From contig JAJZKW010000007.1 of assembly GCA_021803945.1 (NCBI GenBank), positions 1 through 46,523 on the forward strand: a stretch of 46,523 nt of DNA, in the 5' to 3' direction. The notes beneath the pieces are model-generated. The model was given only the letters and a program-made list of their open reading frames with translations. It had not been told where the DNA came from and did not search any database. Within the stretch, counting starts at the first letter, position 1. Each line of letters begins with the position of its first letter. The position numbers were made by a program, and so were the translations under genes. Below are positions 4,067-32,143 of this stretch, piece after piece. This DNA comes from Microcaldota archaeon (lineage in GTDB: Archaea; Micrarchaeota; Micrarchaeia; Micrarchaeales; CABMGC01).

Positions 4067-4507
4067 CTATTTCATGTCCTCTTCATCCCAGGTGCCAGCA
4101 ACAGACTTCCTGCGATGGGGCCTATAAATGTACACTTTGCCCCACGGATCCTTCACCTTTATTCTTGTAGGCCTGAGTTTCGTGTACTTGGAGAGAGAGA
4201 ATTCGTCTGCAGCAGGCTCTTCTGTCACCATCGGCCCCTGCCTTGGCGTATATTCGGGTTCTGTATCTGTTTTAAGTATAGTTATACATGAGACCGGGCA
4301 CTCCTCTGGACAGATCATGCATCCTATGCACTTGTCCACCTGTATGGGATACTCTGTCATGTCAACGTCTATGTTGGCCTTCCCCATCTCGTCCTCCACG
4401 TTTTTGTGCCTTGCCCTAGTAAAATCGAGGGCGTTGACAGGGCACACATCGCCGCATATCCCGCACTGTATGCAGAGGCTGTTGTCGAACGTGTATTTGA
4501 ACGGCAT
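4067..4507 (-). CDS. Dicluster 4Fe-4S ferredoxin-like protein
   Basis: Two complete CxxCxxCxxxCP motifs are visible (Cys 12, 15, 18, 22 and Cys 60, 63, 66, 70 of 146 residues), each able to hold a 4Fe-4S cluster. The 37-residue spacer between them is longer than in small bacterial ferredoxins and closer to the NuoI/polyferredoxin type. The C-terminal 60 residues (TEPEYTPRQGPMVTEEP onward) are unlike standard ferredoxins. The gene starts 8 bases after the end of a membrane-protein gene on the same strand, so the two are very likely one transcript. An electron-carrying role is sure from the motifs; the partner is inferred. Confidence 0.9.
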   Translation of the reverse strand: MPFKYTFDNSLCIQCGICGDVCPVNALDFTRARHKNVEDEMGKANIDVDMTEYPIQVDKCIGCMICPEECPVSCITILKTDTEPEYTPRQGPMVTEEPAADEFSLSKYTKLRPTRIKVKDPWGKVYIYRPHRRKSVAGTWDEEDMK

Positions 4508-18945: not shown

Positions 18946-20013
18946 TTACGCTATCATCCGTTGCCCCTTCCTGCTCACAAGATTAGACACTCTTACCCCA
19001 AGCTTCCTTATCTTCCTGCCCTTCTCCATATTGCTTCTGTATAGCTCTTTTGCCGTCGCAACAAGGGTATCAAGGTCGTTGGTGACCTTTATGCTCCTGC
19101 TGTGTATGTGCTCCGAAAAGTCTTCATAGCGCAGCTTTAGCGTAATCGTCCTAAAATTCAATTGGCCTCTGTTTACCTCCTCAATTACCTCATTGCTCAG
19201 TTTTTCGATTTCAGCTTCGATGGAGCCGTCATTGCTAGTGTCCTCCTGGAACGTGAACTCCCTGCCTATAGACTTAACTCCATAGTTCTCGCTAACTGCG
19301 CTTTCGTCAATTGCGTTGGCATATCTTACCAGTTCTGCACCGAACGCCCCGAACCTGTCTACCATCTGCATGACGTTTGCCTTTGCAAGCTGCTCAACGG
19401 TCTCGTATCCCATGGTCCTGAGCCTTTCCCTCGTCTTCTCCCCCACCCCGTATATCTCTCCGATGTCCAGCTTGGCAATGAAAGACTTGGCTTCGATGTC
19501 GTTCACCGCCTTTATCCCGTCAGGCTTCGCCTTCTCGCACGCAATCTTCGCGATCAGCTTGTTCGGCCCTATCCCTATAGAGCATTTTATCCTTGTCCTA
19601 TCGAGCACAGCCTTTTTTATCACGGCCGCATATTCTTCAGCCTCTCCATATCCTCCTACCCTCCCAGAGACGTCTATGAACGCCTCATCAATGCTTACCT
19701 GCTCGAACCTCTCCGAGAACCCCTTTATTACATCCATCGCGGCCTTTGATATGGTCTCATAGTAATCATAGTCAAGCGGAAGGAAGACCGCGTCAGGCTT
19801 CAGCCTGTACGCAACCGATATGGGTGTGCCGCTCCTTATCCCGTACTCCCTGGCCTTATAGTTGCATGTCATCACCACTCCCCTTCCTGCTCCGCCCTTC
19901 GGATCAGAACCGACTATCGCAGGCCTATCCTTTATCTCGGGATGCCTGAGCTCCTCGCATGCAACGAAGAAGTAGTCCATGTCAACAAGCATTATGATTG
20001 CCATCTCAACCAA
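18946..20013 (-). CDS. dinB: Y-family translesion DNA polymerase (Dpo4/Pol IV type)
   Basis: The catalytic motifs are intact: VDMDYFF (Asp 11 and 13) and SIDEAF (Asp 109, Glu 110). Helix-hairpin-helix motifs follow (IGPNKLIAKIA and IYGVGEKTRERL), then the little-finger domain (VKSIGREFTFQED). At 355 residues it has normal length; the final RKGQRMIA lacks a clear PCNA box. The true start may be the ATG at 20001 or 19992, since the family begins just before LVDMD. The 5' end overlaps the AMMECR1 gene by 8 bases. Confidence 0.94.
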   Translation of the reverse strand: MVEMAIIMLVDMDYFFVACEELRHPEIKDRPAIVGSDPKGGAGRGVVMTCNYKAREYGIRSGTPISVAYRLKPDAVFLPLDYDYYETISKAAMDVIKGFSERFEQVSIDEAFIDVSGRVGGYGEAEEYAAVIKKAVLDRTRIKCSIGIGPNKLIAKIACEKAKPDGIKAVNDIEAKSFIAKLDIGEIYGVGEKTRERLRTMGYETVEQLAKANVMQMVDRFGAFGAELVRYANAIDESAVSENYGVKSIGREFTFQEDTSNDGSIEAEIEKLSNEVIEEVNRGQLNFRTITLKLRYEDFSEHIHSRSIKVTNDLDTLVATAKELYRSNMEKGRKIRKLGVRVSNLVSRKGQRMIA

Positions 20014-27980: not shown

Positions 27981-28955
27981 TTAGCGGTCTCTAGGGGTTT
28001 TTCCGATCTTTCCCGCCAATCTCTTGAAGTCATTGAGCATGAGCGCATGATTCGCACTGAACCTAAGCGCTGCAGACGGATGCAAAGTTATGAAATACCT
28101 TATACCATCCTTCAGTATCTCCCTGCCGTGGTTCCTCTTCACCTCTCCGACACCCAGCACAGACTCTGACGCAAGGTTGCCAAGCAGCACTGCATACTTC
28201 GGCTTTATCAATCCAATCTGCCTGAAGAGGAAGCTCTTGCACAGTCCGACTTCCTTAGGCGTAGGCATGCGGTTCCTTGGAGGAAAGAACTGCACGACGC
28301 TTGTTATGTAAACATCATCCCTTCTTATGCGAGATCTTTCCAGGACCGAATCCAGCAGCCTCCCACTCCTTCCTACGAAAGGCCGGAGCAGCCTGTCCTC
28401 GTTCGCTCCAGGCGCCTGCCCTATGAGCATTAGTCTTGCGTCAAGCCTGCCTTCCCCAGGGACGAACCGCGGACTGAGACTCCACTCCTTTGTTGATGCA
28501 GGCAGCCTTGAATATTCGCTGTTAACCTCTTGCATGGCCTTCTTCCTCCGTATATACTCAATGACCCTGGGCATAAGCTGCACAATGTCCTTGTACTTCA
28601 GCCTCTTGACTGCAGTCTCGTAGCTGCACCAATCGTAAGAAAGGTGCTCATGCGATATCCTCACCCTGCTGCTGCTGACTTCTGCAAGGAAGAACTTCAC
28701 TCCTTTTGCGATCCTGCCCCCATTTCTATAAAAGAAGTACTTTGTGGATTCAGAGAAGAAGCCATCAAACTCCGCGTTTATCCCTGTCTCCTCCAGTATC
28801 TCCCTTCTGGCTGCCTCGGTCTCGCTTTCCCCCTTCTCTATATGGCCCTTCGGAAGGTCGTACTCTCTGTTGCGCTTCTTCAGTATAAGGAAGAGCGACC
28901 TGCCTCTCTCATATCTGTAGATGAATGCTCCAGCAGAATATTCAGATATTGTCAT
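27981..28955 (-). CDS. Nudix hydrolase fused to a family-4-like uracil-DNA glycosylase
   Basis: Residues 1-140 are a Nudix domain with a complete box (G37 to I59, REILEETGI). Residues about 150-324 are a family-4 uracil-DNA glycosylase: motif 1 GQAPGANED (179-187), RPFVGRSGRLLD, DVYITSVVQFFPP and motif 2 LHPSAALR (291-298). Normal members hold a 4Fe-4S cluster with four Cys; here only Cys 239 remains. The site of the usual VVKC is VVQF, and the N-terminal Cys pair is absent. Nucleotide-pool cleaning and base removal are thus joined in one chain. The gene overlaps the archaeosortase-like gene by 4 bases. Confidence 0.9.
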   Translation of the reverse strand: MTISEYSAGAFIYRYERGRSLFLILKKRNREYDLPKGHIEKGESETEAARREILEETGINAEFDGFFSESTKYFFYRNGGRIAKGVKFFLAEVSSSRVRISHEHLSYDWCSYETAVKRLKYKDIVQLMPRVIEYIRRKKAMQEVNSEYSRLPASTKEWSLSPRFVPGEGRLDARLMLIGQAPGANEDRLLRPFVGRSGRLLDSVLERSRIRRDDVYITSVVQFFPPRNRMPTPKEVGLCKSFLFRQIGLIKPKYAVLLGNLASESVLGVGEVKRNHGREILKDGIRYFITLHPSAALRFSANHALMLNDFKRLAGKIGKTPRDR

Positions 28956-30436
28956 TTGATTATACCTCTGAGCGAGCAGTATTCCATATCAAGCTTGCTG
29001 TCGAACGAATTGACGTTCAACGCGGCCATGTTCGAAACCGCCCCGTACAGCTCCTCATACCATGTCTGGCATTCCGGCTGCGCTGCTTTGCTGTAATCCA
29101 GCGATATCACATACATGTCAATGACGCTGCTGCCGTAGCCCTGCGAATACGGGACCATCTCATAATATACGAAGCTATTGCTGCCGTTTCCCAGCCCATA
29201 CACATAGGATATGTTCGCCCCGTCGAGGAACTCCTTCCATGCTGCAGTGCTGCTGTGCAGCAGGCTCTCAGCGCTGGAATTCCGCGCCCCGAATATCACA
29301 ACGGTCCGGCTCCCGGCTCCTGAGGCATTCGCCATCACTATCTCTACGCTCGCGTTCGCCATACCAATAATGCTGTAAGACTTTCCAGGATAGGAAATGT
29401 AAGAGTCATAGAGCGCATTTACCGCTCCCAGGCCGAACGTAGGAGGGCCACCAGTCGATATCAACTGCCCCGAGGCTGCGCCTTGGTAGCTCGCAGATAC
29501 CAGGAGATAAGCCAAGGAGAAGGCAACCGCGATCGATATGCCTGAAATGCTGTACCCCTTTACAGGCCTGCCTAGCCCTATCTTCGGATAGGCAAGCCCG
29601 AACTTACCTGCTGCCAGCAGCATTACTATTATGTCTGCATAGAAAAGCAGCTGGCCTATGACTGCATGCACTCCTAGAGTGCTGCTGTTGGGCCCGTAGG
29701 CGAACCAGGCGAGCGTTATGGAGAGCATGCGTATGAAGTTGAATGCGAGCATAAGCAGCACCCCACAAAGCGCCCATGCTGCCCTCCTCGACTGCTTTCC
29801 CTCAAGGAAATAAGCTACAGGCAGCAGGAAGAGCAGGAGCCCAATCAATGCGCCTATGCCCACGCACGCATTCCCTATGCTTATCCCGTTCCCGTTGAAA
29901 TAGATGGTCAGGGGAGCCACGAAAGAGGCGGACGGCATGAACAGCTTGATTATGTGGTATATCGCGCCTGAGTTTATAGAGGCGAAGTACATATTCTGGT
30001 TTACTATCGGGAAGAGGAGGAGAGGCGAAGCCAATAGCGCATATACCGATATCCATGCGAACCTGCCGAGGTTCTCAATCCCGAATATCAAGGATGCAAG
30101 CGCAGCGATCCCAACCGGAAGTATGAGCATGTCCATCCTGTATCCGAAAAACATCGGGCCCAGGTATCCGCGCAGGTCTAGTGCCAGTACTATCAGCGTT
30201 GCAAAGAGCACTACTCCCAGAGCAAGGCTGCGCGAATCCACATCAGGCACGATCCTCCCGGAATGCTTGAGCATGAACAGCGCGAAGATGGGAAGCATCA
30301 GTATCGGTATTATGACATAAGTGGACGGATCAGTATCGCTTATGTACGGATTGGTTATGGCTGCGGAGAACACGAGCATCAGGGAAAGCAGTGCTGCAAA
30401 CAGCACCAACCCGAACCCCCACCTAAATCTCATCAA
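28952..30436 (-). CDS. Archaeosortase/exosortase-family membrane protein
   Basis: The 494-residue product has about ten membrane helices in the first 330 residues, then an outer domain of about 150. The three residues of the exosortase/archaeosortase active site are visible in order: Cys 191 in GNACVGIGAL, Arg 236 in NFIRML and His 257 in LGVHAVIGQLLF. These enzymes cleave C-terminal sorting tags and attach surface proteins to lipid. The extra outer C-terminal domain, with sequons, is unlike small archaeosortases and recalls the exosortase-linked EpsI position. I see no PGF-type sorting tag on the surface proteins in this window. It shares a transcript with the Nudix-UDG gene. Confidence 0.8.
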   Translation of the reverse strand: MMRFRWGFGLVLFAALLSLMLVFSAAITNPYISDTDPSTYVIIPILMLPIFALFMLKHSGRIVPDVDSRSLALGVVLFATLIVLALDLRGYLGPMFFGYRMDMLILPVGIAALASLIFGIENLGRFAWISVYALLASPLLLFPIVNQNMYFASINSGAIYHIIKLFMPSASFVAPLTIYFNGNGISIGNACVGIGALIGLLLFLLPVAYFLEGKQSRRAAWALCGVLLMLAFNFIRMLSITLAWFAYGPNSSTLGVHAVIGQLLFYADIIVMLLAAGKFGLAYPKIGLGRPVKGYSISGISIAVAFSLAYLLVSASYQGAASGQLISTGGPPTFGLGAVNALYDSYISYPGKSYSIIGMANASVEIVMANASGAGSRTVVIFGARNSSAESLLHSSTAAWKEFLDGANISYVYGLGNGSNSFVYYEMVPYSQGYGSSVIDMYVISLDYSKAAQPECQTWYEELYGAVSNMAALNVNSFDSKLDMEYCSLRGIIK

Positions 30437-30558: not shown

Positions 30559-30990
30559 ATGGAGAAGTTCAGGTATCTCCCTCACACCGCTGACATGCAG
30601 TTCATGGCATTCGGCAAGGACTTCAGTGAAGCCCTAGAGAACTCCGCGCTCGCACTGCTCAGCACGGTCCTCGACGTCAAAAAAGTGAAGAAGTTCAGGG
30701 CCAAGACCTTCTATTCCACAATAAAGGAATCTGCAGACGACAGGGAAGGCCTGGTATGGTACACGCTCCAGGACATACTTTCGGCTGTCGAGTCAAGGCA
30801 CATCGACGCCTTTTCCTTCGAGGTAATATCGCTCAAGACCACCGGCAAAATGAAGCTAGTGGGAAAGCTTTCATACAAGAAAACCGGAGGCAACTACGCC
30901 ATCTTTTCAGTTAAAGCCGTCACCCCTTACGACTTGAAGGTCGAGAGCAAGAGGGGCAGGTGCAGCATACAGGTAGTAATGGACGTCTAA
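30559..30990 (+). CDS. Archease
   Basis: The 143-residue product has the family start MEKFRYLPHTADM with the HTAD motif (9-12), and the closing AVTPYDLKVE strand with the metal-binding Asp. Archease activates the tRNA ligase RtcB by helping its guanylylation. No rtcB is in this window. Length and motifs are normal. It has its own promoter and is divergent from the archaeosortase-like gene. Confidence 0.93.
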   Translation: MEKFRYLPHTADMQFMAFGKDFSEALENSALALLSTVLDVKKVKKFRAKTFYSTIKESADDREGLVWYTLQDILSAVESRHIDAFSFEVISLKTTGKMKLVGKLSYKKTGGNYAIFSVKAVTPYDLKVESKRGRCSIQVVMDV

Positions 30991-31062: not shown

Positions 31063-31094
31063 TCATACAAGTCATACATAGATGATTTGTATGA
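31063..31094. promoter_or_regulatory. Operator at the first toxin-antitoxin start
   Basis: TCATACAA (31063-31070) is repeated as TCATACA (31072-31078) and faces its exact inverse TTGTATGA (31087-31094), which covers the ATG at 31091. A TATA-like AATATATATTT (about 31050) precedes it. The position fits autorepression by the ribbon-helix-helix antitoxin. Confidence 0.5.
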
Positions 31095-31318
31095 ATATTA
31101 CAATAAGGAACCTTCATGACAGCATGTTCAGGAAGTTCAAGGCAAAGGCGGCTGAAGATGACCTGAAATTGGGCGATGCACTTACACAGGCTATAGCTCT
31201 CTGGTTGAAAAAAGACGGAAGTAAACCCAGATCTAAGCTCAAAAGCATAGATGTGTTTGACTGGGGGAAGGGCACCGAAAAAACAAGCGTTGAGGTCGAC
31301 AAGATATTATATGGTTAG
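31091..31318 (+). CDS. VapB-type antitoxin (ribbon-helix-helix)
   Basis: The 75-residue product starts MNITIRNLHDSMFRKFKAKA, a short strand and helix as in CopG/RHH antitoxins, and has a second helix with LGDALTQAIALWLKK. The C-terminal 25 residues (FDWGKGTEKTSVEVDKIL) are the toxin-binding tail. I chose the ATG at 31091; one at 31082 is in frame and equally leaderless. The PIN toxin starts 3 bases after the stop. Confidence 0.8.
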   Translation: MNITIRNLHDSMFRKFKAKAAEDDLKLGDALTQAIALWLKKDGSKPRSKLKSIDVFDWGKGTEKTSVEVDKILYG

Positions 31319-31321
31319 TTC

Positions 31322-31726
31322 ATGATATTACTTGACACCAGTCTTATAATCGCCTATTCAAATAAGGCAGACATGCAGCATAAAAGGGCTGTTCATGTAT
31401 TTGATGATATAGACAGCGGCATGTACGGGACGCCAGCCATAACTGACTATATCTTCGACGAGGTGGTTACTGTCATGCTCGCAAGAACAAAAAACTTCAA
31501 GACAGTAGTTCAGACCGGAGAAAAGCTTCTTGCTTCAACTTTGTTCTTTAAGTTGGATTCCGAAATTTTCGGTCTTTCATGGGACATCTTCAAAGCGCAG
31601 GAGAAGATGCGACTTAGCTTTACAGACTGCAGCATACTTGCCACATGCAGAGTTAACAGGATAAATACTATAGCTACTTTTGACAAAGCACTAAACGAGG
31701 AGAGCAAACTAGAAGTGGTGGATTAA
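31322..31726 (+). CDS. VapC-type PIN-domain toxin
   Basis: The 134-residue product has the PIN acidic residues: Asp 5 in LLDTSLI, Glu 47 in DYIFDE, Asp about 99 in SFTDCSI and a last Asp in IATFDKAL. These ribonucleases cut tRNA or rRNA when freed from the antitoxin. The last 18 bases overlap the end of a second PIN gene on the other strand. Confidence 0.88.
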   Translation: MILLDTSLIIAYSNKADMQHKRAVHVFDDIDSGMYGTPAITDYIFDEVVTVMLARTKNFKTVVQTGEKLLASTLFFKLDSEIFGLSWDIFKAQEKMRLSFTDCSILATCRVNRINTIATFDKALNEESKLEVVD

Positions 31727-32143
31727 CTTTGCTAATTCTACACTCAGTTCCTCATGATTATCAATTATTTGATTGTCAAAGGTAAGCAGAGGAGCTTTAT
31801 TCGATATCGAAGCAGCCACATAGAATGAATCATAGACGGTTAGTTTATGCCTCTTGGCGATATTAATTGCACCATGCACCAGTGTTTCAACAGGTATCTT
31901 TTCTACATTGTCCCAGAACTCCATAATTTCCTGGATTGCCACAGTCAAACTACTGTCCTTCAGGTCTTTTATAAGCACATTGTGCTTCCACAATGCGTTT
32001 AGGACTTCTGCAATAGCTACGCTAGGCGACGCTATTATTTCCCCATCAGATAGAAACGCTTTAATCGTGCTCCGTGTCTCTTTAGAAGACGGCTCTTCAA
32101 GAGCTAATTTAACAATAGCACTCGCGTCGATTACTATCATCAT
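31709..32143 (-). CDS. Second VapC-type PIN-domain toxin
   Basis: The 144-residue product shows Asp 6 in VIDASAIVKL, Glu 46 in AIAEVLNAL, Asp 105 in TVYDSFYVAA and Asp 123 in LLTFDNQ, the full PIN set. It is more AT-rich than the housekeeping genes around it. The start overlaps the stop of its antitoxin by 4 bases (translational coupling), and its end overlaps the first toxin gene by 18 bases. Confidence 0.9.
   Translation of the reverse strand: MMIVIDASAIVKLALEEPSSKETRSTIKAFLSDGEIIASPSVAIAEVLNALWKHNVLIKDLKDSSLTVAIQEIMEFWDNVEKIPVETLVHGAINIAKRHKLTVYDSFYVAASISNKAPLLTFDNQIIDNHEELSVELAKLIHHF

Follow-up and report, generated by a model that had tools for sequence, protein, structure and literature searches.

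Family-4 uracil-DNA glycosylases (UDGs) hold a 4Fe-4S cluster by means of four cysteines, and it has long been debated whether this cluster serves structure, DNA recognition or charge transfer in UDG families 4 and 5. UdgX, a family-4-related enzyme of the same superfamily, contains a 4Fe-4S cluster together with a GEQPG motif and a KRRIH R-loop that includes His109. SMUG2 and the BdiUng-like UDGs of Bradyrhizobium are superfamily members outside the classical families, with broad substrates (PMC8307549); they are likened to the protein studied here by description only. A DNA glycosylase and a Nudix-type domain occur in one chain in MutY/MUTYH (PMC9266487), where the glycosylase is of the HhH type with an Fe-S cluster and the Nudix-like domain is C-terminal, non-catalytic and reads 8-oxoG. 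Known Ap4A hydrolases such as NUDT2 and those of C. elegans (1ktg) and Aquifex (3i7u) are stand-alone enzymes.

We analysed positions 1-46,523 of the forward strand of contig JAJZKW010000007.1 from a Microcaldota archaeon (assembly GCA_021803945.1), a stretch of 46,523 nucleotides referred to below as the window. It contains a 324-residue open reading frame with a Nudix hydrolase at its N-terminus and a family-4-type UDG at its C-terminus, in a single chain (Table 1). Unlike in MutY/MUTYH, the Nudix domain is N-terminal, its catalytic residues are intact and the glycosylase fold is unrelated. With the family-4 UDGa enzymes of Thermus thermophilus (Tth, 1ui0), Tma (1vk2) and S. tokodaii (4zbx), the UDG half shares the fold (Z 28, some 180 residues aligned), the motif 2 His, Asn89, Glu47, Phe54 and a loop of equal length between ligand positions 3 and 4; it differs from them in the loss of three of the four cluster ligands, in Glu41Gln, Asn80Ser and Lys83Gln, and in the added Nudix domain. 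UdgX is somewhat more distant in structure (Z 25), and the UDG half reads GQAPG and has no KRRIH-type loop, the R-loop residues of UdgX being insertions relative to the profile of the fusion; the UdgX motif is thus absent. The Nudix half has the Nudix box and the SHEHxxYxW segment in common with Ap4A hydrolases (Z 20-21, 29-32% identity) and, as far as its sequence indicates, is an Ap4A-like domain fused to a glycosylase. In the open-access literature that we searched, no description of a Nudix-UDG fusion or of a cluster-free family-4 UDG was found, nor any biochemistry for a member of the fusion family. Within that literature the fusion is previously undescribed, and we regard it as a real and large variant of the known systems.

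Architecture of the fused protein

Pfam recognises NUDIX (PF00293) at residues 8-122, with 56.0 bits against a cut-off of 21.1, and UDG (PF03167) at residues 166-302, with 100.8 bits against 24.3; Pfam and NCBIfam together place the family-4-type domain at residues 162-314. The protein matches the family-4 sequence profile TIGR00758 (UDG_fam4; 139.9 bits, cut-off 125.3) and stays below the cut-off of the stricter archaeal model NF040953 (Arch_udg; 134 versus 250 bits). An AlphaFold2 model of the fusion (mcb59e927752c), built with 63 natural sequences, has a mean pLDDT of 96.5 and a pTM of 0.92. Its UDG half has the UDGa fold, superposing on Thermus UDGa 1ui0 over 181 residues with a Z of 28.6 and an rmsd of 1.9. 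In the model, a single helix leaves the Nudix domain, enters the UDG domain and ends near the expected start of the CxxC segment.

Table 1 Features of the fusion gene and its neighbours in the window
Feature	Positions	Strand	Evidence or remark
Nudix-UDG fusion gene, 324 aa	27981..28955	-	ORF and translation; ATG at 28955, TAA at 27981
Nudix hydrolase domain, Ap4A-hydrolase type, aa 5-130	28566..28943	-	PF00293; structure and profile matches
Nudix box G37-x5-E43-x7-R51-E52-x2-E55-E56-x-G58	28782..28847	-	regular expression
Single helix joining both domains, aa 122-148	28512..28592	-	AlphaFold2 model
UDG domain, aa 150-318	28002..28508	-	TIGR00758; 1ui0 Z 28.6
Former CxxC segment, now N145-x2-Y148-x2-L151...W158-x-L160-S161	28473..28523	-	CxxC 0/114
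Motif 1 GQAPGANED; Gln180 = Tth Glu41, Glu186 = Tth Glu47	28395..28421	-	alignment of 114
Motif 3 region YITSVVQFFPPRNRMP; Ser219, Gln222, Phe223, Asn228	28263..28310	-	alignment of 114
Cys239 = Tth UDGa Cys100, sole ligand position left	28239..28241	-	kept 110/114
Motif 2 HPSAALR; catalytic His292 = Tth UDGa His155	28062..28082	-	His 114/114
Exosortase/archaeosortase-like gene, upstream, 4-base overlap with fusion	28952..30436	-	PF09721, TIGR04178
Archease gene, divergent	30559..30990	+	PF01951; neighbour cluster in 68/79 loci

An earlier note on this DNA, made from the sequence, had proposed the fusion, suggested looking for it in other Micrarchaeota and named a misassembled stop as a possible cause. 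The fusion is real: one order of Micrarchaeota, in which they occur in two families, yielded 114 distinct fused homologues, and the spacing between W109 of the Nudix domain and G167 of the UDG domain is 57-59 residues in 104 of them. We therefore give next to no weight to a misread stop, a chimera or a decaying gene, for which nothing but the odd residues speaks. Against it stand the identical fusion and residues in 114 proteins, one of them (L215) from Candidatus Micrarchaeum sp. A_DKE, whose chromosome is complete, two further copies on Thermoplasmata contigs of about 1.9 Mb, the conserved gene order, and selection that is purifying for either half (where dS > 0.3, the pairwise dN/dS of each is mostly 0.03-0.18).

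The solved structures closest to the Nudix half of the model are the Ap4A hydrolases 1ktg, 4ijx and 3u53 (Z 20-21, and 21.2 for 1ktg), Ap4A/Ap6A hydrolases being the nearest, and profile searches matched 1kt9 and 3u53. By regular expression, the Nudix box pattern is present in 112/114 fused proteins, with the catalytic Glu52 in 113; the segment S-x-E-H-x-x-[YWF]-x-W is likewise present (S101 in 110, E103 in 113, H104 in 111 and W109 in all 114). Human Ap4A hydrolase has a conserved X-loop tyrosine, Tyr87 in its numbering (PMC5389931); here Tyr76, which aligns with the X-loop Tyr of 1kt9, is variable in the family, and Tyr73 is conserved in 104/114. Judging from residues and model, the Nudix half is apparently catalytically intact and Ap4A-hydrolase-like. 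The earlier note had taken it for a nucleotide-pool cleaner, which fits less well: a MutT-type (8-oxo-dGTP) enzyme is a weaker match than the Ap4A hydrolases. Nor need the Nudix half be a dUTPase, because a dCTP-deaminase-like gene (L245) is present elsewhere in the window genome.

Cluster ligands and base pocket of the glycosylase half

Positions in the UDG half are numbered after Tth UDGa 1ui0, a numbering that reproduces Glu41, Glu47, Phe54, Asn80, Asn89 and His155 of PMC5387724. Mapping on 1ui0 bears out the statement of the earlier note that only Cys239 is left and that VVKC has become VVQF: the CxxC pair, expected before VPGEG, is absent, Cys84 is replaced by Phe223, and the fourth ligand, Cys100, is kept as Cys239. 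The same holds across the clade, so that the cluster-free variant proposed for one protein extends to all 114 fused proteins. CxxC and Cys84 are each found in none of them, and the full set of four family-4 cysteines is therefore present in no member; the third-ligand position is Phe in 110 and Tyr in 3, and Cys100 is conserved in 110. Substitution by other cysteines, also raised by the earlier note, is ruled out because the whole chain has just two, Cys110 in the Nudix domain and Cys239; no other Cys position is conserved in the family.

At the old CxxC segment other residues are now conserved, namely N145 (113/114), Y148 (113), L151 (107), W158 (112), L160 (114) and S161 (113). Structural alignment puts model residue 140 on residue 2 of the 1ui0 chain, and residue 165 falls on residue 26 by sequence; by these offsets Leu151 would mark the approximate place of the first lost ligand and Ser154/Thr155 that of the second. 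With Leu151, Trp158, Tyr148 and Phe223 in or around the ligand positions, the former cluster site is predicted to be packed with protein, hydrophobic residues filling it, a reading to be taken with the fact that an AlphaFold model cannot reveal a cofactor. An active cluster-free form is plausible since Cys-to-Ser mutants of the P. furiosus and A. fulgidus family-4 UDGs are reported to have lost only about 40% of activity (PMC5295032). A role of the Nudix domain as structural stand-in for the cluster is disfavoured, given that a stand-alone sister protein (L091) and seven Nudix-less relatives are cluster-less too.

As to the cause of the loss, adaptation and compensated drift in a small genome are equally likely. 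One particular adaptation, to iron-poor or oxidising surroundings, had been suggested by the earlier note, and the carriers do belong to Micrarchaeota and Thermoplasmata, both of which include acidophiles (PMC8975820). We consider it very improbable. The window genome retains an endonuclease III with an intact C-x6-C-x2-C-x5-C motif, a second HhH glycosylase with four Cys and, in the window at 4067-4507, a 4Fe-4S ferredoxin-type protein, and a general avoidance of Fe-S proteins is thereby rejected. Moreover, Ca. Micrarchaeum harzensis A_DKE, a member of the order, was cultured without oxygen at pH 2 and with 20 mM ferric sulphate (PMC8975820). Most other family-4 carriers in the sampled Thermoplasmata order retain stand-alone family-4 UDGs, and each of the five that we read has all four Cys. 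Because of the iron-rich growth of A_DKE and the Fe-S glycosylases kept in the window genome, iron shortage is not the cause of cluster loss. Acidity, which the earlier note also named, may have played a part.

The catalytic residues are conserved. His155 of motif 2 is invariant, the water-positioning Asn89 is found in 113/114 (His292 and Asn228 in the window protein), and Glu47 and Phe54 are kept in all 114. The earlier note had described the motifs as kept except for a Glu-to-Gln change; this is correct for Gln180, His292 and Asn228 and overlooks two further replacements, Asn80Ser and Lys83Gln. Across the fused proteins, Glu41 is Gln in 112 and Gly42 is Ala in 113 (the window protein reads GQAPG where family 4 has GE(A/G)PG, and GEAPG has thus become GQAPG), Asn80 is Ser in 109 (Ser219) with Asn retained in 5, and Lys83 is Gln in 112 (Gln222). 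At ten Tth positions the clade-wide signature is Q-A-E-F-S-Q-F-N-C-H, with CxxC absent. By sequence and model, the protein should for now be called family-4-derived rather than a family-4 member, because profile and fold match and the ligands, GE(A/G)PG and Asn80 do not.

Uracil is held in Tth UDGa by two hydrogen bonds from Asn80, to N3 and O4 of the base (PMC5387724), and Asn80 is propped by Lys83 (PMC5387724, PMC10776899); the equivalent Lys of UdgX supports the Asn and is required for folding (PMC10776899). Asn80Ala costs Tth UDGa about 40-fold, and Glu41Gln lowers k2/Km 888-fold, the sole rescue being a Gln-Asp doublet that restores k2/Km to within 5-fold (PMC5387724). The doublet in the fusion is Gln-Ala. 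Given these roles, the recognition side of the pocket appears to have been rebuilt as a set, and since the changes at all three positions are costly in Tth UDGa or UdgX, a weak or different activity is possible.

We consider it fairly probable that the glycosylase half derives from family 4, is active without a cluster and recognises bases in an altered way, and that a rigid connection links it to a dinucleoside-polyphosphate hydrolase that is active as well. The UDG half would work without an iron-sulfur cluster and probably excises uracil, perhaps also other deaminated bases, from DNA. His292 would stabilise the leaving base and Asn228 position the water, as in Tth UDGa; with the Asn80-Lys83 pair rebuilt as Ser219-Gln222 and Glu41 as Gln180, the enzyme should depart from classical UDGa in the bases it recognises or in its rate. 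The Nudix half would be an active Ap4A-type hydrolase, kept at a fixed distance from the UDG by the one shared helix. We infer the activity of both halves from conserved residues and the model, and that the two activities may have a joint role.

Two other readings of the pocket were weighed. Firstly, the rebuilt residues (Gln180, Ser219, Gln222) might have shifted the main substrate away from uracil to hypoxanthine, xanthine, an oxidised pyrimidine or the like. Asn80, with its bonds to uracil N3 and O4, and its supporting Lys83 are both changed in more than 95% of members (PMC5387724, PMC10776899), and in other families changes at the Asn80 position alter the activity range, MUG K68N being an example (cited in PMC10776899). 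However, five fused members retain Asn80 while otherwise showing the full signature, Ser is also found in three four-Cys Micrarchaeota UDGs (L073, L076, L081), and the window genome (902 kb, 94% complete) has a single PF03167 gene, the fusion, with no other UDG-superfamily gene to handle uracil. We hold a shift of main substrate to be rather unlikely. Secondly, the UDG half could be a non-catalytic binder that no longer cuts efficiently and, as a uracil-DNA sensor or tether, recruits the Nudix enzyme to DNA, as the 888-fold and about 40-fold losses of the Tth mutants (PMC5387724) might suggest. We find this improbable: little or no variation is seen at His155, Asn89, Glu47 and Phe54, seven genomes retain the UDG half although its Nudix partner is gone, and the window genome has no other UDG. 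An active glycosylase remains our preferred reading.

Distribution, genome context and history

The fusion is present in most of the 79 relatives searched, and a phylum-wide search with PF03167 found a UDG in 156/301 genomes, mainly in the two families of the window's order. When the motif YITS[VIC]VQF was sought in about 85,000 prokaryote species genomes, it gave 107 stretches, 97 of them relatives; the titles among the 80 matches listed are Micrarchaeota and some Marsarchaeota, Thermoplasmata and uncultured archaeon. One record titled Marsarchaeota (L165), from a genome of about 0.9 Mb, encodes a fusion 60% identical to that of the window; its deposited name is probably wrong and the organism a Micrarchaeon.

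The gene order archease, archaeosortase, fusion is retained in most related loci, and in 67/79 the archaeosortase is the same-strand upstream neighbour of the fusion, a conserved partner outside the enzyme itself. The window also contains a gene for endonuclease IV (Nfo, TIGR00587; 10403-11242, minus strand), which acts at the next step of base excision repair, one for a DinB-type polymerase (18946-20013) and genes that on visual inspection resemble PIN-domain toxins, together with a small partner gene (VapBC-like; 31082-32143).

In a tree of UDG domains, the fused proteins and their Nudix-less derivatives form one group (support 99/93). Its sister is L091 (genome G179), a stand-alone UDG from another family of the class (support 100/98), in which CxxC is absent, Trp occupies the third ligand position, ligand 4 is kept and Glu41 and Lys83 are intact. 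Since this Nudix-free sister already lacks ligands, cluster loss probably preceded fusion, as judged from one sister sequence; most simply, ligand loss and Asn80Ser came first, and the fusion followed with Glu41Gln and Lys83Gln. All four Cys are present in twelve further Micrarchaeota UDGs of the stand-alone kind. The seven Nudix-less relatives retain the whole UDG signature, the Nudix half having been lost later in these genomes with the signature unchanged; L065 only looks like a further case, because its contig is broken there, and was left out. Also within the fused group, on a long branch, lies the stand-alone L103 (G101, another family), which keeps CxxC; Tyr occupies its third ligand position and Gly its fourth. 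A natural clade with three ligands lost, the fourth kept and the pocket changed makes the cluster question testable without engineered mutants, and the Nudix-free sisters and the stand-alone four-Cys relatives add further natural comparisons.

Genomes of two genera have other UDGs. In genus g33, three genomes (G053, G264, G073) are without the fusion and encode an unrelated stand-alone UDG (L070, L111, L112) that reads VVKS or VSKS and lacks every ligand Cys; in G053 and G073 a separate Nudix gene is present besides. In genus g3, which belongs to the window's own family, the genomes read have no fusion, and L071, L113 and L114 are family-5-like UDGs with CxxC and VVKC.

Ten Thermoplasmata genomes of 1.0-2.0 Mb carry the fusion (G301-G304, G366, G367, G370-G372, G398), the label being that of the deposited titles of four of them, with the others in the same order. 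In a quick tree, their copies (L258-L267, L278) form a single group inside the second Micrarchaeota family (SH-aLRT 92, 90, 88). This nesting suggests transfer of the fusion from Micrarchaeota to Thermoplasmata, which include known hosts of Micrarchaeota (PMC8975820, PMC5498576); a DNA-repair gene would then have moved, apparently, from DPANN episymbionts into a host group. A stand-alone family-4 UDG above the family cut-off occurs in none of the ten carriers and in 56/107 other genomes of that order. Because several near neighbours of the carriers lack both the fusion and a stand-alone family-4 UDG, the incoming gene may have restored a function already lost instead of ousting a resident gene.

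Taken furthest, the fusion could represent a distinct class of the UDG superfamily, cluster-free and derived from family 4, with a Gln/Ser/Gln pocket and a new base specificity. In the same rigid chain, a dinucleoside-polyphosphate hydrolase would adjust repair through its substrate or product (e.g. Ap4A under stress), and Thermoplasmata would have received the gene from their episymbionts, the Micrarchaeota; we advance this tentatively and hold it to be rather unlikely. One of the Thermoplasmata genomes, G398, has a second, diverged copy of the fusion, which reads GQSPG and VLKF and has lost the last Cys.
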